The notes beneath the pieces were generated by a model. The model was not told the origin of the DNA. It ran no database searches and worked only from the letters and a program-made list of their open reading frames with translations. Positions 15,518 to 34,500 of a stretch of DNA of 38,696 bases are shown here, one piece after another. Numbering within the stretch: position 1 is the first letter of the stretch; every line of letters starts with the position of its first letter. Source of the DNA: Bacteroidia bacterium (GTDB lineage: Bacteria > Bacteroidota > Bacteroidia > Flavobacteriales > Flavobacteriaceae); the NCBI GenBank assembly GCA_030425285.1, contig JAUIAY010000015.1, positions 1-38,696 on the forward strand. Direction: 5' to 3'. Position numbers and translations under genes: made by a program.

Positions 15518-17971
15518 ATGTCACATTTTATAGACGTCATACTTCCCATTCCGTTACCCAACTTGTTTACTTATAGCATAACCAAGGCTGAAGCTGAATT
15601 TATAAAGCCTGGTATGCGTGTTTCAGTGCCTTTTGGGAAATCTAAAATATATACGGCTTTGGTGTTTTCGGTACATGATAAGGAGCCTCTGGTTTATGAA
15701 GCAAAAGATATTCATCAAATTTTGGATGATGCACCAATTGTAACCAACTATCAATTTCAGCTATGGCAGTGGATAGCCGATTATTACATGTGTACAATGG
15801 GAGAGGTTATGCGAGCTGCTTTACCCAATGCCTTCATTTTGGAAAGTGAAACAATCATTTTTAGAAACACAGCAACAGTTGTTAATGATAGTGATTTAAA
15901 GGACGATGAATTCTTGGTTTACGAGGCTTTGCATCATCAAACATCTTTAACCGTTCAAGATATTACCAGTATTATTGATAAGAAAAATGCTTTACCAGTT
16001 ATTAAGCGTTTAGTGGAGAAAGCGATTATTCTAGTAAAGGAGGAAATGTTTGAGAAATACAAACCAAAAATGGTTAGGTATGTCAAATTACACAATCAAT
16101 ATGCTTCAGAAAATCAATTACAGGATTTATTGGAAACACTATCTCGGGCTCCGAAACAACGAGAGATTGTACTGACATTATTTTCCATTTCAGCGAGAAA
16201 CAAAAAGCCTATTAAGGTGTCGGAATTGACGAACGAGAGCAATGCGTCTTCAACTATTATAAAATCTTTGTTGGATAAGGAAATACTCGAAGAATTTTAT
16301 ATTCAAACAGACAGGGTAACTTATGACGAAGCAGAAAATTCAAGTCAATTCTCTTTAACAGAATATCAAACTAAAACTTTAAACAATATTATTGAATTAT
16401 TTGATAATCAAAATATTGTATTGTTAAATGGTGTAACGTCTTCTGGAAAGACAGAGATTTATATCAAGCTTATTGAATCTATTTTAGATACAAAGAAACA
16501 AGCTTTGTATTTGCTGCCAGAAATTGCACTAACAACCCAATTGGTTCAAAGACTTCAAGATTATTTTGGTGAAAAAGTAGCAGTCTATCATTCACGATAT
16601 TCTTCAAATGAACGTGTTGAGGTTTGGAATCACGTTTTGAATAATTCTCCTAAGGCACAAATTGTAATTGGAGCACGTTCTGCTGTGTTACTGCCTTTTC
16701 AAAATTTGGGATTGGTTATTGTTGATGAGGAACATGAACAATCCTATAAACAATTTGATCCTGCGCCGCGTTACCATGCCAGGGATACGGCAATAATTTT
16801 AGCTAGTATTTTTAAGGTGAAGACACTTTTAGGTTCAGCTACACCAAGTTTGGAGAGTTTTTATAACGCTAAACAAGGGAAATATGGTCTGGTTGAGCTT
16901 AATGTACGTTATAATGATGTATTGATGCCTGACATTGAGCTTATTGATTTGAAGGACAAATTCAAGCGAAAACGCATGACAGGTCACTTCAGTGACAGGT
17001 TGATTGATGAAATGACCGAAACGTTGCAGGAAGGTTATCAAATTATATTGTTTCAAAATCGTCGCGGTTTTTCACCTATTGTGGAGTGCCAAACCTGTGG
17101 TCATTCGCCGCAATGTCCCAATTGTGATGTGAGTTTAACATACCATCAATATCGGGATCAATTACGCTGCCATTATTGTGGCTATAACACGGTTATGATA
17201 AAAACCTGTGAGACATGTGGTTCAAATATACTGGATACCAAAGGTTTTGGTACGGAACAAGTAGAGAAGGAGGTAAGTGCTTTATTTCCTGATGTAAAGG
17301 TGGCTAGAATGGATTTGGATTCTACTAGAGGAAAATATGGTTATGAAAAGTTAATAGATGCGTTTCAGCAAGGTGAAATAGATGTTTTGGTTGGTACTCA
17401 AATGTTGACCAAAGGCTTGGATTTCAGGAATGTTAAATTAGTTGGTGTTATGAATGCTGATAATATGCTCAACTTTCCTGATTTCAGGGCTCACGAGCGT
17501 AGTTATCAATTGCTGGTTCAGGTTTCTGGCCGAGCAGGACGTACCAAGGAGCGTGGGAAAGTGCTTATTCAAACCTATAATCCCTATCATAAAATACTAC
17601 AACAGGTTTCCACCAATAATTATATTGAAATGTTCGCTGAACAAATGAATGATAGACATATCTTTAAGTATCCGCCAATATACAGGCTTATTAAAATTAC
17701 GCTGAAGCATAAGGATTATAATAAAGTAAATACAGGGGCTGATTGGTTTGCCAAATCACTTCGAAATGTCTTTAAGGAGCATGTATTAGGGCCTGAATTC
17801 CCACCAGTTTCAAGAATACGTAATCAATATCACAAAAATATCATGGTAAAAATCCCTAAAAACCAATCTTTATCAAAAACAAAAGAAGCTATCGTAAAAA
17901 TAAACAATAGCTTCTCAAGTGTAAAAGATTTTAGGGCTGTAAGAGTAATTCTTAATGTCGATAGCTTCTAA
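15518..17971 (+). CDS. priA: primosomal protein N' (replication restart helicase PriA)
   Basis: An 817-residue superfamily 2 helicase that recognises stalled or recombined replication forks and loads the replicative helicase. The N-terminal 3'-end-binding domain starts FIDVILPIPLPNLFTYSI. Walker A is GVTSSGKTE (~304-312), Walker B DEEH (~400-403), then GSATPSLES. The zinc-binding block near residues 524-572 has eight cysteines (CQTCGHSPQCPNC, CHYCGYN, CETCG). VSGRAGR is motif VI. It is longer than the 732-residue E. coli protein, with extra sequence between the N-terminal domain and the helicase core. Its stop overlaps the convergent LytTR gene by 4 bp (17968-17971), so there is no room for a separate terminator between them. 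Confidence 0.97.
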   Translation: MSHFIDVILPIPLPNLFTYSITKAEAEFIKPGMRVSVPFGKSKIYTALVFSVHDKEPLVYEAKDIHQILDDAPIVTNYQFQLWQWIADYYMCTMGEVMRAALPNAFILESETIIFRNTATVVNDSDLKDDEFLVYEALHHQTSLTVQDITSIIDKKNALPVIKRLVEKAIILVKEEMFEKYKPKMVRYVKLHNQYASENQLQDLLETLSRAPKQREIVLTLFSISARNKKPIKVSELTNESNASSTIIKSLLDKEILEEFYIQTDRVTYDEAENSSQFSLTEYQTKTLNNIIELFDNQNIVLLNGVTSSGKTEIYIKLIESILDTKKQALYLLPEIALTTQLVQRLQDYFGEKVAVYHSRYSSNERVEVWNHVLNNSPKAQIVIGARSAVLLPFQNLGLVIVDEEHEQSYKQFDPAPRYHARDTAIILASIFKVKTLLGSATPSLESFYNAKQGKYGLVELNVRYNDVLMPDIELIDLKDKFKRKRMTGHFSDRLIDEMTETLQEGYQIILFQNRRGFSPIVECQTCGHSPQCPNCDVSLTYHQYRDQLRCHYCGYNTVMIKTCETCGSNILDTKGFGTEQVEKEVSALFPDVKVARMDLDSTRGKYGYEKLIDAFQQGEIDVLVGTQMLTKGLDFRNVKLVGVMNADNMLNFPDFRAHERSYQLLVQVSGRAGRTKERGKVLIQTYNPYHKILQQVSTNNYIEMFAEQMNDRHIFKYPPIYRLIKITLKHKDYNKVNTGADWFAKSLRNVFKEHVLGPEFPPVSRIRNQYHKNIMVKIPKNQSLSKTKEAIVKINNSFSSVKDFRAVRVILNVDSF

Positions 17972-18663
17972 ATATTGTTTAGGGCATCAACAAGTTGGGT
18001 CTTTTTGTTCCTACTTAAAGGAATCTCGTAAGTACCAACTTCAACGTTTTTACTATTAAATCTATCTACTTTGTCTAGATTCACAATGTAAGATTTGTGA
18101 ATTCTTAAGAACTTACCTTCTGGAAGTTCATGTTCAAAAGCTTTCATGGTCGAAAGAACCACCAAACTAGTTTCTTCAGTAACAAGTTTTACATAATCAC
18201 CAAGGGCTTCAATCCACTTAATGTCTTTAATGTAAACCTTACGTTTTTTCAGGTTACTCTTCACAAAAATGTGTTCGCCTTCTGTTTCGTTAAAGTCTAG
18301 TTTTAGCTTGTGTTGCTCAACAGCTTTCTCAACAGCTGTATTAAAACGTTCTTTTGTAATGGGTTTGTGCAAATAGTCCGTGGCATCGTAGTTAAATGCT
18401 TTAAAGGCATATTCGGTTTTACCAGTTACAAAAATAATCTGGGGTTTGTTGTTAAGGACGTCAAGCAATTCAAAACCATTTAAAACTGGCATCTCAATAT
18501 CCAAGAAGATTAAATCTACTTTGTGGGTATTTAGACCGTTTTTGGTTTCCAACGCACTATTGTACTCTGCAATTAAGTTAAGAGAAGGATGGTTTTCAAT
18601 TAACTTTACAATTGAGAGACGTTGTATCGCTGAGTCGTCAACTACTACACAGTTTAATGTCAT
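17968..18663 (-). CDS. LytTR-family two-component response regulator
   Basis: A 231-residue regulator with an N-terminal receiver domain and a C-terminal LytTR DNA-binding domain. The receiver shows DD at residues 9-10, the phospho-acceptor Asp55 in LIFLDIEMP, and the Lys of HKPI near residue 99. The LytTR domain runs from about residue 133 (HIFVKSNLKKRKVYIKDI, WIEALGDYVKL) through FLRIHKSYIVNLDKV and ending LSRNKK. The start at 18663 is chosen; an ORF start 14 codons earlier would add residues with no receiver similarity. No sensor kinase lies beside it. LytTR proteins bind paired direct repeats about two helical turns apart; the target is not known. It is convergent with priA. Confidence 0.93.
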   Translation of the reverse strand: MTLNCVVVDDSAIQRLSIVKLIENHPSLNLIAEYNSALETKNGLNTHKVDLIFLDIEMPVLNGFELLDVLNNKPQIIFVTGKTEYAFKAFNYDATDYLHKPITKERFNTAVEKAVEQHKLKLDFNETEGEHIFVKSNLKKRKVYIKDIKWIEALGDYVKLVTEETSLVVLSTMKAFEHELPEGKFLRIHKSYIVNLDKVDRFNSKNVEVGTYEIPLSRNKKTQLVDALNNI

Positions 18664-18799
18664 AACATTTGTTTTATTTCGGTTAAGATATCGACAATAG
18701 TACAAAAAATTCGGTTAAAAACCAAAAAACATCGTTGAAATGTTCTTTTTAACATATCTTTAACATTTATTTTGTCGCCAATATTAATGTGGGTTTAGT

Positions 18800-22112: not shown

Positions 22113-25100
22113 CTATTTAACCAGTACTTTTTTCGTTATTACGGTACCTTCATCTAGTTTTAGGTTTAGGATGTAAGTTCCTGTACTGATTTCAGTAGAC
22201 TTTAATCTAATAATTTCAGTTGTTTCAATGTTATTGAATGTATTGATTGTTTGTCCAAGCATATTAATCATTTCAACAGATTTGATAGTTGCTGATTTTG
22301 GGTTATGAATAACAATACTACTGCTCGTATTGGAATAGTAGACAGTTAAACTATCGCCTATGTCATTCTCATCTATACTTAATGTGTTGTTTGTGAACGT
22401 AATTTCAAAACGATCAAGATATTCACCAGCTGATAAGTAAATGCTATAATTACTATCTCTTAAATCATGATAGATGTTCAGTTCTTTATCATGTGCATAA
22501 ATATCTAAATCATCAGGTACATTTTCTAGAATATCAATTGTAATATTGTTTAAACCTTCTTCATCCGTATGGATGCCTAGTGGTAAAATAGTATTTTCAT
22601 CAATTCTGTCGATACCTTGAACAATATATTGGTTGTTATCAATCATCCAATACATGTCATCTATTTGAACTTCATTTAAAAGACCATCAAAGCCCCAGTC
22701 AAATCCTTCACTGGCTCGCTCGTCTTCAGTGACCAATAATTGTCTGTGAATAGTGTTGACAGAATTGAAACCAATACGCAATTTCATACGTGTGTCGGTG
22801 TCGTTATCAGTCCTGTTTGTAGATGATTCACCATCTCTCATAAATACAGAGCTGGCAGAACCTTCTTTTTGAAACACACGTTGAGAGTTTCTAAACTCAA
22901 CACTGCCGTTGGATTCACCAGTTACAAAGAACCCTTGTCCAACAGGGATATATCTTCCAGGTGTTTTGGTTCCAGTACCTACTTGAGCCACATCAGGATC
23001 TGGAGTTCCCCAAGCTGCGGCAGGAACACCGCCAGAGAAATTATATGTACCATATCCACCTTGGTATTCTGCAAGGATGTGTGAGCCACCTCCCCAATGT
23101 TCCCAGAAATAAAGCGTACCACTGATTAATGGATTTGCGCCAGCACCACCAATTGTAGGACCGTTATCGGTAATAAAACGTTCAGCATCTATAGCAGAAG
23201 CATAAGGATTACCAACTAAATATTCATTTCCAAGATTTATAGTTAGAGAAACATTGCCATTATTTGGCTTACCATCAAACACATAGTTTTGTTCAGTAGA
23301 AACAGCACCGCCAGTATCGTTAACTCCTTTCATAGTGAATCCTTCACCAGCAAATAGGGTTCCGGTATTTCTTACATGTTGCCAGGATGCATAGTCGTCT
23401 GCCAATCTGTTATTGAATTTCCAAATCCAATAGTGAGCAATCTCAATAGTTGAACCACCATTAGAGCCATCGTAGCCTCCCACATAGCTAATATTGGAAG
23501 GAGAAGCAGATGTTGTCCCATCTTTCATGATGTTGTTATTCAATGTATATCTGTAATTATTTGGGTTTCCAGTTGCGGTAAATCCTACTGGAGAAGACCA
23601 ATAATTATAAGTATACAAATCTTGTGTTCCTTGTTGATCTTTCTCTAATGCTCCAGTGGCACCAACAACCAAATCACTGTCCGTTGTTTGGATTAACTGT
23701 GATTCGCCTTCAAGATCAATTCGGCCATCAAGGTTTAAAAAGTGAGATACCGTTAACCCATAACCTGTATCGGTACTATTGTCTCCATCAACAGTTAATT
23801 CGTTGCTCTCTACAAATAGAGCTAATACATTTCTGTTACCGTTATTTCCTGCTGGTAAACTACTGTTGTCCATAGTCACATTATGATTAGTTTCAATAAT
23901 GTTCCAATCTACCGTAATGGTATTGTCAACAATAGAGTTAGAACCAGGTTTTGTTTGAATACTACCATTGGACCAAACAGAATTGGTGTCCCAGCTGCCA
24001 TTATTGGCTGTCTGGTAAGGTAGGGGAGCTGTTTGTCTATCTACAGTCCTCAATGTTCTTAAGGCTCCTTGATTGCCATTTCCAGATTCGTCCTTAGTAT
24101 TAGTATAGGTATAAGTTGACATAGGGTAATAACCAATTAAGTCTGCCCAAGGAATTGTACCAACTTCATCTTTTGTAGGGTTGGCACTTTGGCTAATGAA
24201 ATAGGATGCTCCAACAAAGCCAGAATTTTCCTCTATTTCTTGGTTCATGATATACCTGATTTGGTCTTCGGTTAGCCTAGCATCCCAAATTCTTACTTCA
24301 TCTATATTTCCGTGGAAAAAGGCCTGTGGCGATAGTTTTGAAGCAGCACCAATGAAGAATGATTGATCAGTGTCTTCTGGTGATGTTCGGTTAATTTGCT
24401 TGTCTAAAACACCATCGATATAAATTTTGGCCAAACTGGCTCCATAAGTTACAGCTAGATGATGCCATTCGTTTTTAGGAACGGTAGTATTGGAAGTTAC
24501 GGTTTGTACACTTCCACTAGCTCGTTTCCAAGATACCTCAAACTTTCCGGTATTATTGATTTTAAAGTCGTATCCTTCAGTAAAAGTAGCGTCTCGTTTT
24601 GATAGGATAGATCGGTTGTTTGAGTTGGTGTTGGCCAAAACCCATGCAGAAATCGTAAATTCCGTTGGGTTTAAATCCAAGGCATCTTCCATATCTACAT
24701 AGCTGTCAACACCATTAAAATATATAGACCTTATGAAGACATGTTCTGGTGCCCATCCAAAAGTAATGTATTTAACACCATCAAAATCATAGTCTGTAGT
24801 AAGTACTGTCTCACCCAATTCATTGGTATCTTCAGTCATAACACGATAATCGGCAGTTGGATCAAAATTTGGTGTATCAGAAATAAACATAAGATACCTG
24901 CCATCAGGCGGTGTTGCTGTTCTAACGGCACTTTTCAATATTTGTACCTCTACCGACGGTATGTCGCCTCCGTTTTCGACTACCTTCCATGTTCTAGCTA
25001 TACCATGGAAATCTACTTCAGTGGTTAAGGATGGAGAGATATCAGAACTCATGTTGACTAAAACATCAACTGATGGATCGTCAAGATCTGCACCATCGTT

Positions 25101-28100
25101 CCCCCAAATTAAAAATTCTTTGTCGTTCAAGGTATTAGGGTTTAGATTATTTGTATCAAATATTTCATTTATACCTATCGTTAAAACACCTTGGGTACGT
25201 CCATCAGAATCACTAACATTGTTTACGCTTCGTGATTGTTTTTGATGCAAATTTGAGGCATCGTCACGGCCAATACCTGCAATATCATAATTGAAGACAT
25301 CGTTAGCTGCTACTCCTGTATTTTGATCCCAGATAACGGATCCGTCACTATTTACATAGTCTTGAGATGTACCATTTGTTCCCAAAGTAATCCCGTACTT
25401 AATAGCTAAATATGATAAAATCCTATTACGCTCTTGGGTAAGATTGGTATCGTCTTTACGTGAGGAATAAGTTATAATTTCAGCAATTCTGGCATCAGTA
25501 CTTGCTTCCCAACCTTCACTACGACCAATCCAGTATCGAGCGTCATTAACGTTAGCAAAGTCTGAAACATCATTTTGGTGGGTTTCTTTATTTAGGGCAT
25601 TATAATATAATTCTTGTTGGGTGCCTGCCAGGTTGTTTCTAGCATTTATGATTCCGGCATTATTGTAAATTATATTATTTCCTGGGCTAGTATCTCTTTG
25701 TGCAACACCATAACCATCACCGGAAGATGTCGGGCCATGGCAATAAGTTAATACTTCATTGCTAAATCTTGATGTATAATTTCCAAGACCAATTCCTGTT
25801 GCATCGGTATTATTAGTAGTGATATCTTCATCACCACAAAAAATATCCATACTTCCAAAATTCTTGTTTACAGTAACATCTGGTATTAGCACTGTAAAAA
25901 CATCTTGAGAATAATAACCGCTGGATCCCTCCAGAAAGTTTCTGTTGGGAGCATCGTATGAAAAATCACTATCGACTGGAATACTTGAATAGTTTCCATC
26001 AAAATCAACAACAGGATTAAAATTAATATTATCTATAACGTTGTCTCTATAGGTAGGTTCTTGCCCAATCCCTGGTGTGTTTACAGTTGCATCAGAGCCA
26101 TTGCCTTGGTCAGCCCATAAAGTCACCAAGTCACCGTTAGTATAACCTAAACCAGAATTTCCTTTAAGCCATAAAGCTAAATCACTTGTAACGCCTCCTG
26201 GAGCAGTGGCTCCAGCTCCTTGAATATTAAAATTATAAGGGTTTTCATTACTATCATTGTTTGCAATGGTTACAGTAGCTGACCTTATTCCTACGTTACT
26301 AGGTGTAAATGTAATGTCAAATGTTGTGCTTCCTCCAGCTGCAATAGAATTGTTTGGAGTAGCTGTAACAGTAAAGTCAGACGCATGTGGTCCTCCAATA
26401 ACTACGTAAGGAGAAGCTCCAGTCAAATTTAAATTTAATAAACCACCGTTATTTTGAATGGTAAATGTTTTTACTATGCTTCCGAAAACGGCAGTGTTTC
26501 CAAAGTCAGTGTCATCAGATGGATTAGGTGTCGTATCTCCGTCAACAATTGTAGTGCCATTTCCTTGAATGTTTATTTCTGGTGCAGTAGAATATCCATT
26601 ACCCTGAATATTAAAAACATAAGGATCTTCATCACTATCATTGTTTGCTATTGATACAGTTGCACTTCTTAATCCTGTAGCACTGGGATCGAAAGTAATA
26701 TTAAATGTTGTGCTTCCGCTTGGAGAAATTGGACTTGAAGGGTTGGAAGTAAGAGTGAAATCTCCTGCATGAAGACCGGAAATAGTAATATATGGTGACG
26801 GGTCAGTTAAATTTAAGTTTGAAAAACCTAAATTTTGAATGGTAAATGTATTGGTGTTAGTACCCAATAGAATATTAACGGTTCCAAAATCTGTGTCATC
26901 TGTTACAGATGGCGTTGTATCATTGTTGCTAATATTAGTTCCATTACCTACTAAATTTATTTCTGGTTGCGGAGAGCCAGAAGTTATGTTTATGGTGTAA
27001 TCTTCAACTTCACCATCAAAATTAGTTTGACATGAGGAAGGGTCGTTGTTGTATCTGGCAGAAACACGCATTCTAGTATTGCCTAAAGTAGCACCAATAG
27101 GTATTGTAACATTAACCGGTGATAGGTTAGTTGCTGAATTAAATACGTTACGGGCTGTTCCCATATCATATTCTTCCCCGGCATCTGTAAAATCACCATC
27201 TTGATTCCAATCTATCCAAACAATTGCATGTACGGTGTAATTTCCATCTGTGTTAACATGTGTTGTTAAATTATAGGAGTTCCCTTGTGTAACTGTTGTA
27301 GATATGTGTGTAAAGTCTTCATAGCCTACATCCTTATAAGGACCATCGCTGTTGTCAATGGTGTTAAATATAACTCTTGTTACTCCAGTTTCATAGGAAG
27401 TATTACCATATGAAGTGCAGTAACTTGGTGGAGGAGGCGTTGTGTTTAAATTTATTATTTGTATTTCATGGTCCATAGAATTACCGCTCCTATGAGCCCA
27501 ATGTGCAGCTTCTGTTGTAGAATTCAAGTAGTAGTTACGCCATCCTCTCCCATAAGCTGTACCGCCACCACTGGAAATAGAAGTTCCTATAATTAGTGAT
27601 TCGTTTAAACCTATTAATGAAGCGGATGAAATATTAATCGTACTTTCACCACTACTACTACTTGTATCGCTGCTGAATCGGGTAACACTAATATCTGGGT
27701 TATTGGCAACATGCACAAAATGACGATTACCATTATTTTGTGCATCATGATTGCCGTCAAAAGTCCAAGAAACAGTTCGGTTGTTACCACCCGGTCTCAT
27801 TATGGGCCAATTGTCTGCAATGGCCTCATCAACACCATTATCACTCATGTTTCCTCTATGGTGTGTGAAAATCATAGATTCATTCCAATTACTCACATTG
27901 GTAGCGGCACCTGTGCCATCAGCATTTGCTCGTAAAGTAATATTTCCTGTATCATTATCTACAGTTCCGGAGTCACCATGCAATATGGTCCAGTTACTTC
28001 CCGTAAATTCAACAAGGGTAATATATACGGTAACATTATTAGCATTTGAACCCTTCTGAACACGCATGGTTGAGGCATTTTCCAAATATGCAATCACAGA

Positions 28101-28628
28101 ACCTGAATCTGCATCAGGACCTGATGAGCTATTTATGATACCAGTAATAAAGGGAATACACTTGTTCGCATTTGAAATGCCACTTAATGCTTGAGTAACG
28201 TTATTACTGCCCCCATTAAGAGTAACAGTGTAACGGCCTCTAACAATAAACTCATTATTGCCTCCAGGGCTTCCGGTATATTCCCATACGGAAGCATTAA
28301 ACTTTGTGTTATTATTAGTTGAATTACTTTCTCTATAATAAGTCACAGTGTTGGTTCCCGTTAGGCGAACGGCACCAGATAGATCTCTACCTGACGAATT
28401 GGAAGAATTTTCATCAGACCGTCCTGCTTGAGTCAACCTATTGTTGTTATTAAGTACAAAGGCATTATTGAGTGAGGACACACCTGTTATAGAGGATGTT
28501 GCTCCTGATCTAGGAACATCTCTTTCAAGATGTTGAACATTAAAGTCTTGTGAAAAAGCTATGCATGAAAATAACAGCACACTGAATAGCAGCAGGTACT
28601 TGCGCACCAATAAGGTATAATTTTCCAT
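22113..28628 (-). CDS. giant secreted GEVED/choice-of-anchor D/LamG protein, T9SS type A
   Basis: A 2171-residue exported protein. A signal peptide is at residues 1-26 (LLLFSVLLFSCIAFSQ). Residues ~27-395 form an unassigned Asn/Ser/Thr-rich beta region. A GEVED domain follows at ~420-550 (FDGEVEDYTINI). Two tandem choice-of-anchor D/ASPM-SPD2-Hydin-like repeats lie at ~555-680 and ~683-806, each with DDTDFG, TFTIQN, ATVSI or ATVTI and FNIQG. A DUF8202-like region spans ~810-1290. A LamG (concanavalin-like) domain is at ~1298-1465 (YFNGVDSYVDM, EWHHLAVTYGA, DEVRIWDARLTEDQI). A long conserved block precedes a C-terminal type A sorting domain at ~2085-2171 (VEMINMLGQTINTF, STGTYILNLKL). The protein probably sits on the cell surface and may bind carbohydrate; the ligand is inferred only. 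The half from LamG onward is homologous to the gene at 31582-38696. Confidence 0.92.
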   Translation of the reverse strand: MENYTLLVRKYLLLFSVLLFSCIAFSQDFNVQHLERDVPRSGATSSITGVSSLNNAFVLNNNNRLTQAGRSDENSSNSSGRDLSGAVRLTGTNTVTYYRESNSTNNNTKFNASVWEYTGSPGGNNEFIVRGRYTVTLNGGSNNVTQALSGISNANKCIPFITGIINSSSGPDADSGSVIAYLENASTMRVQKGSNANNVTVYITLVEFTGSNWTILHGDSGTVDNDTGNITLRANADGTGAATNVSNWNESMIFTHHRGNMSDNGVDEAIADNWPIMRPGGNNRTVSWTFDGNHDAQNNGNRHFVHVANNPDISVTRFSSDTSSSSGESTINISSASLIGLNESLIIGTSISSGGGTAYGRGWRNYYLNSTTEAAHWAHRSGNSMDHEIQIINLNTTPPPPSYCTSYGNTSYETGVTRVIFNTIDNSDGPYKDVGYEDFTHISTTVTQGNSYNLTTHVNTDGNYTVHAIVWIDWNQDGDFTDAGEEYDMGTARNVFNSATNLSPVNVTIPIGATLGNTRMRVSARYNNDPSSCQTNFDGEVEDYTINITSGSPQPEINLVGNGTNISNNDTTPSVTDDTDFGTVNILLGTNTNTFTIQNLGFSNLNLTDPSPYITISGLHAGDFTLTSNPSSPISPSGSTTFNITFDPSATGLRSATVSIANNDSDEDPYVFNIQGNGYSTAPEINIQGNGTTIVDGDTTPNPSDDTDFGNTAVFGSIVKTFTIQNNGGLLNLNLTGASPYVVIGGPHASDFTVTATPNNSIAAGGSTTFDITFTPSNVGIRSATVTIANNDSNENPYNFNIQGAGATAPGGVTSDLALWLKGNSGLGYTNGDLVTLWADQGNGSDATVNTPGIGQEPTYRDNVIDNINFNPVVDFDGNYSSIPVDSDFSYDAPNRNFLEGSSGYYSQDVFTVLIPDVTVNKNFGSMDIFCGDEDITTNNTDATGIGLGNYTSRFSNEVLTYCHGPTSSGDGYGVAQRDTSPGNNIIYNNAGIINARNNLAGTQQELYYNALNKETHQNDVSDFANVNDARYWIGRSEGWEASTDARIAEIITYSSRKDDTNLTQERNRILSYLAIKYGITLGTNGTSQDYVNSDGSVIWDQNTGVAANDVFNYDIAGIGRDDASNLHQKQSRSVNNVSDSDGRTQGVLTIGINEIFDTNNLNPNTLNDKEFLIWGNDGADLDDPSVDVLVNMSSDISPSLTTEVDFHGIARTWKVVENGGDIPSVEVQILKSAVRTATPPDGRYLMFISDTPNFDPTADYRVMTEDTNELGETVLTTDYDFDGVKYITFGWAPEHVFIRSIYFNGVDSYVDMEDALDLNPTEFTISAWVLANTNSNNRSILSKRDATFTEGYDFKINNTGKFEVSWKRASGSVQTVTSNTTVPKNEWHHLAVTYGASLAKIYIDGVLDKQINRTSPEDTDQSFFIGAASKLSPQAFFHGNIDEVRIWDARLTEDQIRYIMNQEIEENSGFVGASYFISQSANPTKDEVGTIPWADLIGYYPMSTYTYTNTKDESGNGNQGALRTLRTVDRQTAPLPYQTANNGSWDTNSVWSNGSIQTKPGSNSIVDNTITVDWNIIETNHNVTMDNSSLPAGNNGNRNVLALFVESNELTVDGDNSTDTGYGLTVSHFLNLDGRIDLEGESQLIQTTDSDLVVGATGALEKDQQGTQDLYTYNYWSSPVGFTATGNPNNYRYTLNNNIMKDGTTSASPSNISYVGGYDGSNGGSTIEIAHYWIWKFNNRLADDYASWQHVRNTGTLFAGEGFTMKGVNDTGGAVSTEQNYVFDGKPNNGNVSLTINLGNEYLVGNPYASAIDAERFITDNGPTIGGAGANPLISGTLYFWEHWGGGSHILAEYQGGYGTYNFSGGVPAAAWGTPDPDVAQVGTGTKTPGRYIPVGQGFFVTGESNGSVEFRNSQRVFQKEGSASSVFMRDGESSTNRTDNDTDTRMKLRIGFNSVNTIHRQLLVTEDERASEGFDWGFDGLLNEVQIDDMYWMIDNNQYIVQGIDRIDENTILPLGIHTDEEGLNNITIDILENVPDDLDIYAHDKELNIYHDLRDSNYSIYLSAGEYLDRFEITFTNNTLSIDENDIGDSLTVYYSNTSSSIVIHNPKSATIKSVEMINMLGQTINTFNNIETTEIIRLKSTEISTGTYILNLKLDEGTVITKKVLVK

Positions 28629-28681
28629 AAGCGGTTAAATTTTATTAGTTTGGGACTAATCAATTTATTATTAATAGATTA

Positions 28682-28714
28682 CAAATATACAATTTTAACT
28701 CCATGAAACGCAAA
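28682..28714 (-). promoter_or_regulatory. candidate promoter of the 2171-aa gene
   Basis: On the minus strand TTTG (28714-28711), 21 bases, TATATTTG (28689-28682), a perfect TAnnTTTG. The leader would be about 50 bases. The -33 element lies inside the shared direct-repeat element at 28701-28733, so a bound regulator would touch the polymerase site. Confidence 0.55.
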
Positions 28715-28733
28715 AAAATTCGATGAAATGCAT
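28701..28733. promoter_or_regulatory. direct-repeat upstream element, copy 1
   Basis: A 33-bp element about 73 bp ahead of the 2171-aa gene. It holds two ATGAAA boxes (28703-28708 and 28723-28728, TTTCAT on the coding strand) whose starts are 20 bp apart, with an A/T tract between. Copy 2 lies at 31421-31453 ahead of the next secreted protein gene and differs at only three positions. Two direct boxes about two helical turns apart fit a dimeric or LytTR-type operator; this is inference. Confidence 0.6.
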
Positions 28734-28764
28734 TTTAATACTTTAAATATTTGATAATGAGTTA

Positions 28765-28805
28765 GTTAAAAAAGGCTAGAATTCAATATTCCAGCCTTTT
28801 TTAGT
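28765..28805 (-). terminator. terminator of the M14 carboxypeptidase gene
   Basis: The stem AAAAAAGGCT-GAAT pairs with ATTC-AGCCTTTTTT, with one A-C mismatch in the middle. Read on the minus strand it comes directly after the stop at 28822 and ends in a T run. The plus-strand T run makes it possibly bidirectional. Confidence 0.8.
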
Positions 28806-28821
28806 GATATTTTTTAGAAAA

Positions 28822-31359
28822 CTATCTTTTGACTATCCTTTTTATTACTGATGTATTTGTATCAGTATCAGTTAGTTTAATAAAATAGATGCCAGTTGCA
28901 AGACCTTGTAAGTTGTCTATAGTAATGAGGTTATTATTTGGTGTTATCTGATTCAATTGGATAACGGAACGACCGCTAACCTCAATGATTTTAACATCAA
29001 GAACATTATTATTCTTGAGCCTAATGTTTATTTCATGATTGTATGGGTTAGGGTAAACCGTAATTGCTTGTTCATTAAAACTTGCAGCATGTAACGTTGG
29101 GCTTATAATGTTTAGAGTATAATCTTCTACTTCTCCATAGTTAAAGGTTTCGCAAGGATCATTGGCAGTTTGGCCACTACCGTTATAGTATTTAAGTATA
29201 ACGCGCATTCGGGTATTGCCTAAAGAAGCATTTGAAGGAACGCTAAAAGTTCCATTTACTATGGCAGTATTGGATGAAGGACTTTCAAATATCTTTTCAT
29301 TACTTTCAAAAGTACCGTTTTGGTTAAAATCGATCCAAGCAGAAACAGCTTCACGGTAAACGGTACCTGTCCAATGTTTGGTTACAGAAATAGTATTATC
29401 AGATGTATCGGTTGCTAAATCTCCAAAAATAATAGTGGCTGTATGATCGGAATAGCCAGAAGAAGTACTGGCAGTAGTATCGTAATCTATGCCATTAATA
29501 TTAACATTGCCAATATACTCATCTGCAATTGAATTTCCTTGTGCATCACAATAATCAATGTCAGTGGTTGTGAATTGTTCCGAAGTAGAATAAGCAGTGC
29601 TATTGGAACCGCAATAGGATTTTACTTGAAATTCATAGGTTGTGTTTGGGTTCAATCCACCTATTTGATAAGGATTTGAAGTTACCCCAAGAATTTCTGT
29701 CCATGTAGGTAACCCTACTTCACGGTATCTAATATCAAAGCTATCTGCAGTAGTTGCAGTCCAAGAAGCATTTGTTGAGCTAGAATCTGTTCCAGCAGTT
29801 CCAAGATTTGATGGAGCAGAAGCAGTAAGGGGTGTAAGCATAACATCGGCTAATAGCTTGGTTTCATAATCTGCTATTGTTTGACTGTTCAATGTAAACG
29901 ATTGATAACATGGAGCCTCAAAAAGAATATCATAAGTTCCCGCTTTAACTGGTCTGTAATAGTCACCATATAATGGACTACTAACTGTATGTGAACCAAT
30001 AGCATCGTGACTAACCAAAGTAATGGTAGCTTCAACTGGATCTCCTGAAATAGCATCTTTAACGAGACCTTGAAAACCATAAGTTCCTTGAATTAAGTAT
30101 TCTATTAAGGCTTCTCTGTTATAATTCCAATGATTAACCAATTGGTTTGCAGGAATTAGTTTTGTGTTAGATAATTCTATAGTGACTTCTTTACATTGGT
30201 GGTAATAGTTCATAAAATCTTGACGGCCTCCAAACACCTGGTACCAATCAGCACCTTCAGTAACTCCTGGCCATTGGTGGTTATTGTAAGTAGCATCCAT
30301 ATATCCGTTAGGACTGTTGTCTTGGCAGTTTACGGCATATTCTTTACTAACCAGAAAGAACCAATCGCTATCAGCATGGTTGGTATAGGTATTATCAAAT
30401 GGATAGTTTACTACCTCAGTTCCCCCATGAAAATTGGCTGATAGAACAAAATGATTGTTGTCGGCCAAAGTCATGAAATGCTGTGTCTCTACTTGGTAAG
30501 GATTACCATCATCGTGTGGTCCAGCTACATTATCAGGATAGTTCCTGTTTAAGTCCACATTATTGGCATTAGCACGACGCGCATTGGCTACAGAAGTGTT
30601 TGAAGCATTGTTGTAGTAAGTGCCATCTGGGTTTGCCATAGGGTTTATCCAAACTTCAGAATTATCCAATAAATTTTTAATACGATTATGGTCAGGATGT
30701 CCTGTGTCTTCATAAGCTGTAATAAAGTAATCAATTAAATTCATCATCAAAGGGTAGCCGGTAATTTCATCACCATGCATAGAAGAGGTGTACATTACTT
30801 TGGGTTCAGCTTCTTCAGTACCAACATTGTCAGAAAGTTTAACGAATAACAATCTTTTATCACCGCCAGCAACACCTTCAGTAGTGCCACCTATATCAAT
30901 AAATTCACAAATAGTGGGATGATTATTGGCAAATTCTTGCATTTGTTGTGCATAATCAGCATAAGTTGGATAAGCTGTTAGAGGAAACGTAAGCGGGTAT
31001 GGACCTCTACGACTGCTGGCAGGGAGTTCGTTACTCATTACAATACCATAGGCTTCATTATCAGAGGCATTAACTACGAAGTCTATTCCCAAACGTTGAA
31101 ACTGTCTGAATTGTTTGGTGTTAGCCCAAGCATATACGGTTTTAGTCGATGGGTCATAGTTTAGAATAGACATTTGTGAAGTGAGTTCTTGCAATTCAGA
31201 AATGTCATTGATAACAAAACTAAAGTTTACTTCTTCTTTTTGTTCCAAATACATTTCTGCTCGCTGTAAGTCATTTACTTGAGCAAATATTGAGCTAAAA
31301 GAAACAACTAACGTTAATAAGGTTAACGATAATCTTGATTTTGAGTAGATTAATTTCAT
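28822..31359 (-). CDS. secreted M14 zinc carboxypeptidase with FN3 and GEVED domains, T9SS type A
   Basis: An 845-residue exported metallopeptidase. The signal peptide spans residues 1-26 (LLTLVVSFSSIFAQ). A propeptide-like region reaches ~115. The M14 carboxypeptidase domain covers ~125-425: zinc ligands His195 and Glu198 in HGDE, the substrate-binding Arg in NRNYP (272), the third zinc ligand His311 in NFHGG, and catalytic Glu395 in VTIELS. A carboxypeptidase regulatory-like beta domain follows (~425-510), then fibronectin III (~512-600), a GEVED domain (~603-752, with YGEVEDYTL) and a type A sorting domain (~760-845, YPNPYNHEINIR, ATGIYFIKL). All catalytic residues are present, so the enzyme is likely active on peptides outside the cell. 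It lies between two giant T9SS genes and has its own terminator. Confidence 0.94.
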   Translation of the reverse strand: MKLIYSKSRLSLTLLTLVVSFSSIFAQVNDLQRAEMYLEQKEEVNFSFVINDISELQELTSQMSILNYDPSTKTVYAWANTKQFRQFQRLGIDFVVNASDNEAYGIVMSNELPASSRRGPYPLTFPLTAYPTYADYAQQMQEFANNHPTICEFIDIGGTTEGVAGGDKRLLFVKLSDNVGTEEAEPKVMYTSSMHGDEITGYPLMMNLIDYFITAYEDTGHPDHNRIKNLLDNSEVWINPMANPDGTYYNNASNTSVANARRANANNVDLNRNYPDNVAGPHDDGNPYQVETQHFMTLADNNHFVLSANFHGGTEVVNYPFDNTYTNHADSDWFFLVSKEYAVNCQDNSPNGYMDATYNNHQWPGVTEGADWYQVFGGRQDFMNYYHQCKEVTIELSNTKLIPANQLVNHWNYNREALIEYLIQGTYGFQGLVKDAISGDPVEATITLVSHDAIGSHTVSSPLYGDYYRPVKAGTYDILFEAPCYQSFTLNSQTIADYETKLLADVMLTPLTASAPSNLGTAGTDSSSTNASWTATTADSFDIRYREVGLPTWTEILGVTSNPYQIGGLNPNTTYEFQVKSYCGSNSTAYSTSEQFTTTDIDYCDAQGNSIADEYIGNVNINGIDYDTTASTSSGYSDHTATIIFGDLATDTSDNTISVTKHWTGTVYREAVSAWIDFNQNGTFESNEKIFESPSSNTAIVNGTFSVPSNASLGNTRMRVILKYYNGSGQTANDPCETFNYGEVEDYTLNIISPTLHAASFNEQAITVYPNPYNHEINIRLKNNNVLDVKIIEVSGRSVIQLNQITPNNNLITIDNLQGLATGIYFIKLTDTDTNTSVIKRIVKR

Positions 31360-31405
31360 TTTGATTTGGTTTAAATTTCTTATTCAGGATGCTAATATAG
31401 AAGTT

Positions 31406-31434
31406 TTAAATTATAAACATCCATGAAATGCAAA
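31406..31434 (-). promoter_or_regulatory. possible promoter of the carboxypeptidase gene
   Basis: On the minus strand TTTG (31434-31431), 17 bases, TAATTTAA (31413-31406), a weaker match to TAnnTTTG. As at 28682-28714, the -33 box lies in the T tract of the shared direct-repeat element. Confidence 0.4.
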
Positions 31435-31453
31435 AAAAATCGATGAAATACAT
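31421..31453. promoter_or_regulatory. direct-repeat upstream element, copy 2
   Basis: The second copy of the 33-bp element, about 62 bp ahead of the carboxypeptidase gene. ATGAAA boxes lie at 31423-31428 and 31443-31448, spaced 20 bp apart, with A-rich sequence between and the same flanks CC at the left and CAT at the right. It matches copy 1 (28701-28733) except at three bases. The spacers and flanks beyond the element are not conserved, so selection acts on the element itself. Confidence 0.6.
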
Positions 31454-31530
31454 ATGGTTTAGCTGCTATTCTATAATTTATTGTAGCCATTTAAATAGTT
31501 TGTGAGACTGTTTTATGGAATGAGGAATAA

Positions 31531-31558
31531 AAAAAGCGGCCACATTGGCCGCTTTTTT
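31531..31558 (-). terminator. terminator of the right-edge giant gene
   Basis: GCGGCCA (31536-31542), loop CAT, TGGCCGC (31546-31552). The stem is extended by an A tract on one side and a T tract on the other, giving a U-run hairpin on the minus strand after the stop at 31582. The plus strand also has a T run. Confidence 0.9.
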
Positions 31559-31581
31559 AAACTATCTATAATTGTTCAGGA

Positions 31582-34500
31582 TTAATAACCTTTGATAATT
31601 ATTTTCTTGTTCACAGTTTTATTATCTGAAGTTTGTACTTTAATAATATAGTTCCCTTCAGAAAGGTTTCTAACAGGAATTCTAGTTTCTGTTGATAGGG
31701 GAGCATTGGTTTTGTTCCAAGATTTAATGCTTTGTCCTAACATGTTCATTAAGTACACTTGTTTAATATCTATATGGTGAGGTACTTTAATGTAAATTTC
31801 ATGAGTGTTATTTAAATAATTAACAATAATATCTTGAGTATCATTGTCAGCTACACTTAATACACCTTCTTCTTGGAAAGTAACAAAGAATCTATCAGTG
31901 TATATTCCAGCATCTAAATGGTTTTGATAATTAAATTCATTAATGCGCGTGTATGTGCCTAATAATGAATCATAAATGAATACATCAATATCTTCATCAA
32001 AATTTTCTAAACCAGTTAAGGCTATTTCAATAATACCGTTGATGCCTAATTCAATAATTACGGGATACATACTGTCTGTGTTGAATTCACCAACTCCCTG
32101 AATAACATATTTTTCATGGTTTATATCAAATGACATATCACTAGGAAATGCGTCCGAATTGGTAGCGTCATATCCGTAGTCAAAATCGTCACTAGCTTCG
32201 TTGTTTGGTGTGAATGCCAGTAATAGAGGCCTAATGGCACCTTCAGGTGAGGTAAACGCTATACGAACACGCTTTATAAGATCAACCGTTTCTTCTGGAT
32301 TACGATTAGAATCAGTACTACCATTTCTAATAAATACAGATGTATTGGCGGTTGATTCCTTTCTAAAGGCACGCTGGGCATTGTTAAAGGTCACGAGACC
32401 TCCATCAGCATCTCCAGTAACGTAGAAACCTTGACCAACTGGTATGTAGCGCTGCGGTACCTTTCCAATTGTACCAACACCCCCTAAGCCAGTAGGTGGT
32501 GTTGTTGCTGCAACACCTCCACTGTTAGAATAAGCAGCATAACCACCTTCATAATCAACTGTAATATGTGAGGTATTAGTTTTGGAGTGTTCCCAAAAAT
32601 ACAAAGGACCAGTGATGCTTCCTGCATTATCAGCAATAAATTGATTGGCATCAATGGCAGAAGGGTATGGGTTTCCAATAAGAGCCTCGTTGCCACCAGT
32701 TACCGGTGTTGTAATAGTTCCGTTATTAGGCTGACCAACAAAGGTGTAATTTTGAACATCGTTTATTGGGTCGCCAACGCCACTCCCTTTCATGGTAAAG
32801 CCTAATCCAACGGGTACGTTATAACTCGTGTTTATGGCATGCCAGTCGGCATAATTTCCTGCGGTATAATTCTCAAACAAGTATAGCCAGCGGCTACTTA
32901 ATGTAACAGGGTTAGTGCTTCCTGTAGCATTGTTGCCCGTAGTCCAGTTAACAGCATTGTTTCCATCATATAGTATAGAGCCAATTTGATAGGTATTACC
33001 ATTTTGACTCACAGGAGAACTCCAGTAGTTGTAATTAAACATATTGGTTGTACCTTGCTGGTCACGATGCAAAGCACCCGTTCCACTGTAGTCTACAATA
33101 CTGCCTGTATCTTGTAAAAGTTGTGATTCCCCTTCAAGATCCAAAACACCGTCTATTTTTAGATAGGTGGTAACGCGTATACTATGACCGTCATTTGGAT
33201 TACTGTTTTCAATTGATAGCGTATTGTTGTCAACTAATAAGCCTAGTAAAGTAATATCTTTATTTGTTGAGCTCACATCGTGCTGTGTCCTTACTATATT
33301 CCAGGTTACAGGAGACCCGTTAATGCCATTACTGTTTGGTATTTGTTGTACTGAACCATTAAGCCAAGTACTTTGATTAGTCCAATTGCCATTGTTGGCT
33401 GAAATATAAGGCAATGGTGCTGATTCGTTTTGAAGACTAGTAATATTTCTCAAAATACCATTAACACCTACATCAGCATTAAGATTTCCAGCTGCTATGT
33501 CTGGAGTTCCTTGATTCATTTGATAATAGGCTATTAGGTTGCCCCAATTCAATCCACTGTTTACGGTTGGCCCTGTAATGCTACCAATAACATTTCCACC
33601 ATTGTTTTCTATCTCTTGATTCATCATCAATCGGATTTGATCGGCACTTAAATTGGTGTTCCAGATACGTATTTCATCTAGCCAGCCATTAAAGTAATTA
33701 ACAGGTGTATTATTGGTACGGGACATAGCTCCTAATAACGTATTAAAGTTATTAGAACTTGGTGATGGCCCTGTATTGGTATTCATGAGGATGCCATCAA
33801 TATACAGTCTGTATTGAGAGCCATTGTACGTTACCGCAATATGGTACCATCTGTTGTTTGTTAAGCCATTTGCTGAAATACTAGAACCATTTGCATTAAA
33901 TGAAATAGTATTGTTTACCAATCTTAAATCATAACCAGTAGCTAAATTAGTAGCGTTTCGTTTAGAAAGTACGGTTTTAATGGAGCTATTTATTACGTTT
34001 GGTTTAATCCAAGCTTCAATACTAAAGTTACCACTTAAATTATAATTATTAGCAAAGTTAATATTATCATCTGCACCATCAAAGTCAATAAAATCACCAC
34101 AATCAGGGAATACAACCTGTAAGGTTGCGGTATCATCGCTACATGGGGAAACATTGTCTAGAGTCCATGTAATGTCATATGTTGAACCACTTTCGCCACT
34201 AAATATCGCATTAGGATCATTAACACTCGAGAATGAATATGGACTACCAGAAGGTGTTGATGTAACTGTCCATTGACCAGAACCATTAGCCTGCAATTGT
34301 ACGCTCGTATCGCTACAATCAGATATGGATGTGACATTTGTAGCCGAAGCACTCACATAAGGTGCTATGGTATAAGTCACTGAATCCGATGTTGCACTAC
34401 ATGGACCAGCTGGATTGTTAGTAGTATAAGTAAGCGTTACATTACCGTTACTGATGTCGTTACTACCAATGGTATAAATGGCATTCGGGTTATTATTGTT

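Follow-up and report, generated by a model that had tools for sequence, protein, structure and literature searches.

A conserved direct-repeat element ahead of two T9SS protein genes as a predicted binding site for an orphan LytTR regulator in Flavobacteriaceae

To our knowledge, Flavobacteriaceae have few described regulator-operator pairs, and it seems to us little understood by which means the displayed T9SS surface proteins are chosen in this family. A locus in which two neighbouring genes of secreted proteins are preceded by nearly the same short stretch of DNA raises the question of what this stretch is and which protein recognizes it. The window, that is, the whole stretch of DNA analysed, comprises 38,696 nucleotides (contig JAUIAY010000015.1 of assembly GCA_030425285.1), and the features from which the question starts are the following (profile R1 and classes A and B are defined below).

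28697..28734, (-) strand: motif copy 1, 38-nt model span (profile R1, E = 1.2e-11)
28723-28728 and 28703-28708, (-) strand: TTTCAT boxes of copy 1
28682..28689, (-) strand: -7-like box TATATTTG, class A, 13 nt after box 2 of copy 1
22113..28628, (-) strand: gene of a secreted protein of 2171 aa, downstream of copy 1
31418..31453, (-) strand: motif copy 2 (profile R1, E = 4.7e-11)
31443-31448 and 31423-31428, (-) strand: TTTCAT boxes of copy 2
31392..31399, (-) strand: -7-like box TATATTAG, class B, 23 nt after box 2 of copy 2
28822..31359, (-) strand: gene of a secreted zinc carboxypeptidase (M14) of 845 aa, downstream of copy 2

The two near-identical copies which the initial annotation had placed at 28701-28733 and 31421-31453 are present, with three differences over 33 positions and an identity of 91% over 34 nt. 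Their coding-strand (-) sequences are ATGCATTTCATCGAATTTTTTTGCGTTTCATGG and ATGTATTTCATCGATTTTTTTTGCATTTCATGG, one per copy, and in both of them the TTTCAT boxes lie 20 bp apart from start to start, as had been described, with a T tract between the two boxes. For the window in both orientations, 2.7e-5 pairs of 33-mers with up to three mismatches are expected; the similarity of the pair is not due to chance. The DNA around the copies had been called unrelated, which holds with the exception of the promoter-like box. Both genes encode multidomain proteins. The product of 2171 aa contains GEVED, Laminin_G_3, choice-of-anchor D and T9SS type-A sorting domains, its T9SS tail scoring above the TIGR04183 cut-off and below that of Pfam, and the M14 carboxypeptidase additionally features fn3, GEVED and a T9SS type-A sorting domain. 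The window also contains a third T9SS gene, from 31582 onwards, which leaves the contig, and its promoter lies beyond the contig end.

The specificity of the motif comes from the spacer and the flanking bases, beyond the bare boxes. Measured against the chance rate, as had been proposed initially, the bare pair TTTCAT-N14-TTTCAT stays near chance genome-wide, whereas the extended motif exceeds it. In the genome of 3.1 Mb, the bare pair occurs four times versus twice for the reversed control, a T-rich spacer being confined to the copies at 28701 and 31421; in the window, one mismatch allowed, four occurrences were found versus 1.09 expected. The conserved motif is TGCATTTCATCGA-N7-TGCATTTCAT(S)GA, i.e., two direct half-sites of 13 bp (extended form TGCATTTCATCGA) with a period of 20 bp or about two helical turns. 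With up to two mismatches it was found in 21 of 99 relatives and its reversed control in none of the 99. The relaxed form GCRTTTCAT-N11-GCRTTTCAT (up to three mismatches) gave 24 matches in the own genome versus seven for the reversed control, so that some of the weak relaxed matches are due to chance. The sequence-only profile R1 was built from 27 aligned sites, namely the 30 fetched matches with T-rich spacer minus L020, L024 and L031. All of the 149 genomes contain R1 matches if weak ones are admitted (E<=1), thus only stronger thresholds are informative, and outside the family of the window the best match among those listed reaches E = 2.9e-4.

At E<1e-3, the own genome contains seven R1 sites: the two window copies, one copy behind porX and four before other genes, which encode an ECF sigma factor, proteins of 1621 aa and 399 aa and a small PID-CTERM-like protein with a PID_CTERM match under its cut-off. 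Half-site-like pairs 44-50 bp apart were seen at G000:C3:2712-2769 and C11:45474-45538. Two near-identical copies close together might also be taken for members of a repeat family or for a mobile element with no regulatory role. This reading is hardly credible considering the just seven sites of the own genome, their fixed placement before promoters and the conservation across genera despite divergent flanks.

The placement before promoters was followed in 60 regions picked from R1 matches, which comprise 74 sites scoring 16 or more, with at least one site represented twice owing to the overlap of L138 and L146. Downstream of 59 of these 74 sites, an ORF of 80 aa or longer begins within 350 nt, with a median distance of 62 nt between box 2 and the start codon. 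The available part of a study on flavobacteria gives TAnnTTTG as the sigma-A -7 consensus (PMC9723704). A TAnnTT[TA]G box starts 11-13 nt after box 2 in 22/74 sites (class A) and 21-24 nt after it in a further 22/74 (class B), counts that overstate the number of events because orthologous promoters are not independent. About 0.4 such boxes are expected at those spacings over the 74 sites, an expectation which is somewhat low as the background, DNA 60-400 nt downstream, is mostly coding; profile R1 itself does not span the -7-box positions. A -7-like box stands at neither spacing in 30/74 sites. In the other 44/74, judged by sequence, the element lies just upstream of the upstream promoter element or overlaps it. 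The two window copies represent one of each class (13 nt in A, 23 nt in B). The class spacings differ by one helical turn, as would be expected for an activator facing the polymerase. The initial annotation had taken the TTTG at the end of the T tract for a -33 box, which suits the 28701 copy, where it stands 21 nt before TATATTTG, and fails for the 31421 copy, where TATATTAG is 10 bp further away. As the -7-like box follows the 33-bp element, the latter is probably absent from the transcript of that promoter. A reading as RNA element was rejected: an Rfam scan of 28500-31700 returned nine weak matches, none of them at the gathering score of its own family.

Some further features go along with the classes. 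Class A leaders, including that of the window (28640-28670), often contain TTAGTCCCAAACTAA, and AGTCCC occurs within 110 nt in 14/22 class A sites versus 0/22 class B sites. A protein of about 270 aa with its own motif copy adjoins a class B gene in L147, L156, L163 and L181; the one scanned (L147) matches no NCBIfam family.

The same geometry bears on a reading of the element as a promoter used by an ECF sigma factor (e.g., the factor behind C6:76205), with the boxes serving as -35 and -10 elements. In three genera, the motif precedes an ECF sigma gene, and the text available of PMC9723704 describes an ECF-type promoter motif for part of the T9SS component genes in Flavobacterium psychrophilum. 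Nevertheless, the two boxes share one sequence, as -35 and -10 elements do not. In 44/74 sites, a sigma-A-like -7 box stands at fixed distances, and two positions one helical turn apart suit an activator rather than a sigma factor. This renders recognition by an ECF sigma factor highly improbable.

Which genes follow the element was evaluated with 39 proteins, i.e., 37 of the 59 downstream ORFs of the fetched regions, truncated and near-duplicate ones being left out, and the two window proteins. At E<=1e-3, 22 of them match TIGR04183, 20 Por_Secre_tail (Pfam) and two CHU_C, while six belong to the M14 peptidase family and three are ECF sigma factors. The own genome encodes 57 TIGR04183 (T9SS type-A) matches, 56 of them over the cut-off, and strong sites precede only two of these 57 genes, both in the window; the site is thus missing before most T9SS cargo genes, and the motif marks a chosen subset of this cargo. 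The regulon of surface T9SS proteins suggested initially is therefore borne out on the side of the targets (22/39 type-A) and falls short on the side of the cargo (2/57). Likewise, a restriction to T9SS targets does not hold, since sites also stand before the ECF sigma gene and the PID-CTERM-like gene and a further copy lies behind porX.

As for the protein that recognizes the element, the initial annotation had offered a link to the LytTR response regulator encoded in the window as speculation. This link is now strongly supported in silico, namely by co-occurrence, a motif copy in the promoter of the regulator gene, a reciprocal profile, proximity and a half-site shared with YpdB. The features concerned are given below.

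17968..18663, (-) strand: LytTR response regulator of 231 aa (Response_reg and LytTR), the proposed binder of the motif
18709..18746, (-) strand: degenerate motif copy in the promoter of the LytTR gene, conserved in orthologs
18695..18702, (-) strand: -7-like box TACTATTG ahead of the LytTR gene, 12 nt (hand count) after box 2 of the degenerate copy

The gene is flanked by priA on one side and by genes of ribosomal proteins on the other, three of which lie within about 1.5 kb and are assigned by their sequences. Within this distance, neither a sensor kinase gene beside it nor a membrane-inhibitor gene in its operon was seen. Nine LytTR genes are encoded in the own genome. Across many genera, some 38 genomes encode the product of the window gene with 90-100% identity, and the next matches reach only about 72% or less, a step sharper than that of two other LytTR paralogs searched.

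Co-occurrence was assessed in 90 family genomes, the own genome included, with motif presence defined as E<5e-4. Genomes with a LytTR ortholog comprise 53 with and 16 without the motif, those lacking the ortholog 0 and 21, respectively (Fisher p = 7.6e-11, kinship ignored); without the 19 training genomes, the numbers are 34/16/0/21 (p=2.5e-8, kinship again ignored). Among the genomes with ortholog, the motif is missing at E<5e-4 from four of the 38 whose LytTR is at least 90% identical and from 12 of the 31 whose LytTR is more distant. Two of the eight other paralogs, L057 and L064, served as controls and gave p=0.0039 and 0.13 with the training genomes removed. Where L057 is present and the window LytTR absent (seven genomes), the motif was found in none, and where the window LytTR is present and L057 absent (six genomes), it was found in four. 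Still, the Spearman correlation with the motif is 0.76 for L057 versus 0.82 for the window LytTR, so that shared descent contributes to the association. In at least 19 of the 38 genomes with an at least 90% identical copy, a motif match and the LytTR gene are no more than 25 kb apart, and 12 of 36 named loci with a LytTR at least 91% identical contain a site with a score of at least 24 in up to 10 kb on each side. Linkage between regulator and motif is thus frequent, short of universal. Among the distant orthologs, no site of at least 24 was found in the stretch searched at L254-L296 (43 named loci) and L252 (72% identity). By eye, the LytTR promoters of the distant orthologs at L256, L261, L263, L266 and L270 feature a single half-site, e.g., TTGCAGTTCATCGAT, just ahead of a -7-like box.

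The copy in the promoter of the LytTR gene itself stands at -83 and has the 20-bp period of the target sites. In ortholog promoters, the best score exceeded the 95% shuffle level in 29/30 and the 99% level in 20/30; it fell on the copy at -82 to -84 in 27/30 and elsewhere in 3/30. A reciprocal profile was built from such self-promoters only (28 distinct footprints chosen by pattern from 30 promoters) and applied to the 60 regions, a search space of 930,436 bases with both strands counted, in regions chosen as site-bearing. Its 30 top matches included 25 known sites in exact register, and each of 20 permuted control profiles found 0 known sites. The site in its promoter proves by itself only that the LytTR gene is a target, and the motif might accordingly be bound by another LytTR paralog or an unlinked factor, all the more as co-occurrence covered two of eight paralogs. 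Such a binder is unlikely, given that co-occurrence favours the window LytTR over L057 and L064 and that a motif match lies near its gene in at least half of the genomes mentioned. Moreover, the other eight LytTR genes of the own genome carry no motif in their upstream 300 nt (scores of -11.1 or lower versus 8.1 for the window gene).

A different regulator is suggested by the copy behind porX. In the own genome, the product of this gene is PorX by NF052313 (853 bits), and an inverted motif copy was observed behind it at G000:C16:4382-4408 (+). An antisense R1 match no more than 14 bp from the coding end of porX was counted in at least 16 genomes among the listed matches, down to E = 1.6e-4. 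In the four regions mapped in detail, the site is flanked by porX and by a gene on the same strand which we take to be tsaE-like, and it points away from both of them. No -7-like box follows it in the eight copies examined. Together with the many targets that are T9SS cargo, this conserved position would fit PorX, the T9SS response regulator, as the protein that binds the element in place of the LytTR protein. In addition, the PorX site of Porphyromonas gingivalis, CG(A/C)AAAAA-N5-T(T/A)TCTTTGC in the available portion of PMC8265659, is likewise AT-rich with a CG start and a TTTGC end. As far as that portion goes, however, the reported site lacks repeated TTTCAT boxes 20 bp apart. PorX was found over the cut-off in 17/21 family genomes without LytTR ortholog and motif, so the motif does not occur wherever PorX is present and does not track PorX itself. 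With the motif also present in the LytTR promoter, binding by PorX appears very unlikely.

Taken together, the orphan LytTR response regulator of 17968-18663 most probably has the 33-bp element as its operator, a prediction made from sequence comparison. As we infer, two phosphorylated LytTR monomers would occupy the half-sites from the same side of the helix and attract RNA polymerase. In class A promoters (28701 and the LytTR gene) the site would overlap the -33 region, and in class B promoters (31421) it would lie one turn upstream. Position and phasing suggest activation rather than repression. By this means, the regulator may turn on selected T9SS-exported surface proteins and adjust its own level. 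A far more tentative idea, which we consider doubtful as a whole, is that the conserved orphan LytTR acts as a switch for surface remodelling in a large clade of Flavobacteriaceae, activating a defined set of giant T9SS surface proteins and an ECF sigma factor and being wired into PorX by the inverted operator behind porX (roadblock or antisense control). A tie of the LytTR operator to porX is possible. Among the best matches in the open-licence literature, no description of this LytTR regulator or motif was found. Regulator gene, operator sequence, promoter geometry and target list are now joined in one testable case.

Compared with known systems, the element matches direct-repeat LytTR operators in its predicted layout. 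Such operators consist, according to the accessible text of PMC4847170, of two repeats, direct or inverse, which are 9-11 nt long and 11-13 nt apart; the arrangement GCATTTCAT-N11-GC(A/G)TTTCAT falls within these limits, and a co-occurring LytTR protein is given. The promoter geometry with its two spacings is unusual. The PorXY-SigP system of P. gingivalis likewise combines a response regulator and an ECF sigma factor with T9SS functions, but differs in regulator family and site and, in the portion available, controls por machinery genes, whereas the window motif mostly precedes selected cargo (PMC8265659). HdrRM and BrsRM of Streptococcus mutans, as far as described in the excerpt of PMC6193735, similarly rely on direct repeats, 11-12 bp apart, just upstream of promoters, their own included. 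Their regulators are paired with a membrane inhibitor, the arrangement of a LytTR regulatory system (LRS), in contrast to the window regulator, which has a receiver domain and no such inhibitor gene within about 1.5 kb. The Escherichia coli regulator YpdB (PyrR) is likewise a LytTR response regulator, with direct repeats containing GCATTTCAT upstream in the yhjX promoter; the operator is given as a direct repeat of GGCATTTCAT in the accessible text (PMC4847170). The two proteins share 27% identity, and the repeat period is 21 bp upstream of yhjX and 20 bp in the window element. YpdB has an adjacent kinase gene, the YpdA/YpdB-type pairing that was not seen within about 1.5 kb of the window LytTR. 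Finally, one target gene is described for YpdB in the same text, whereas the window motif precedes a small set of genes.
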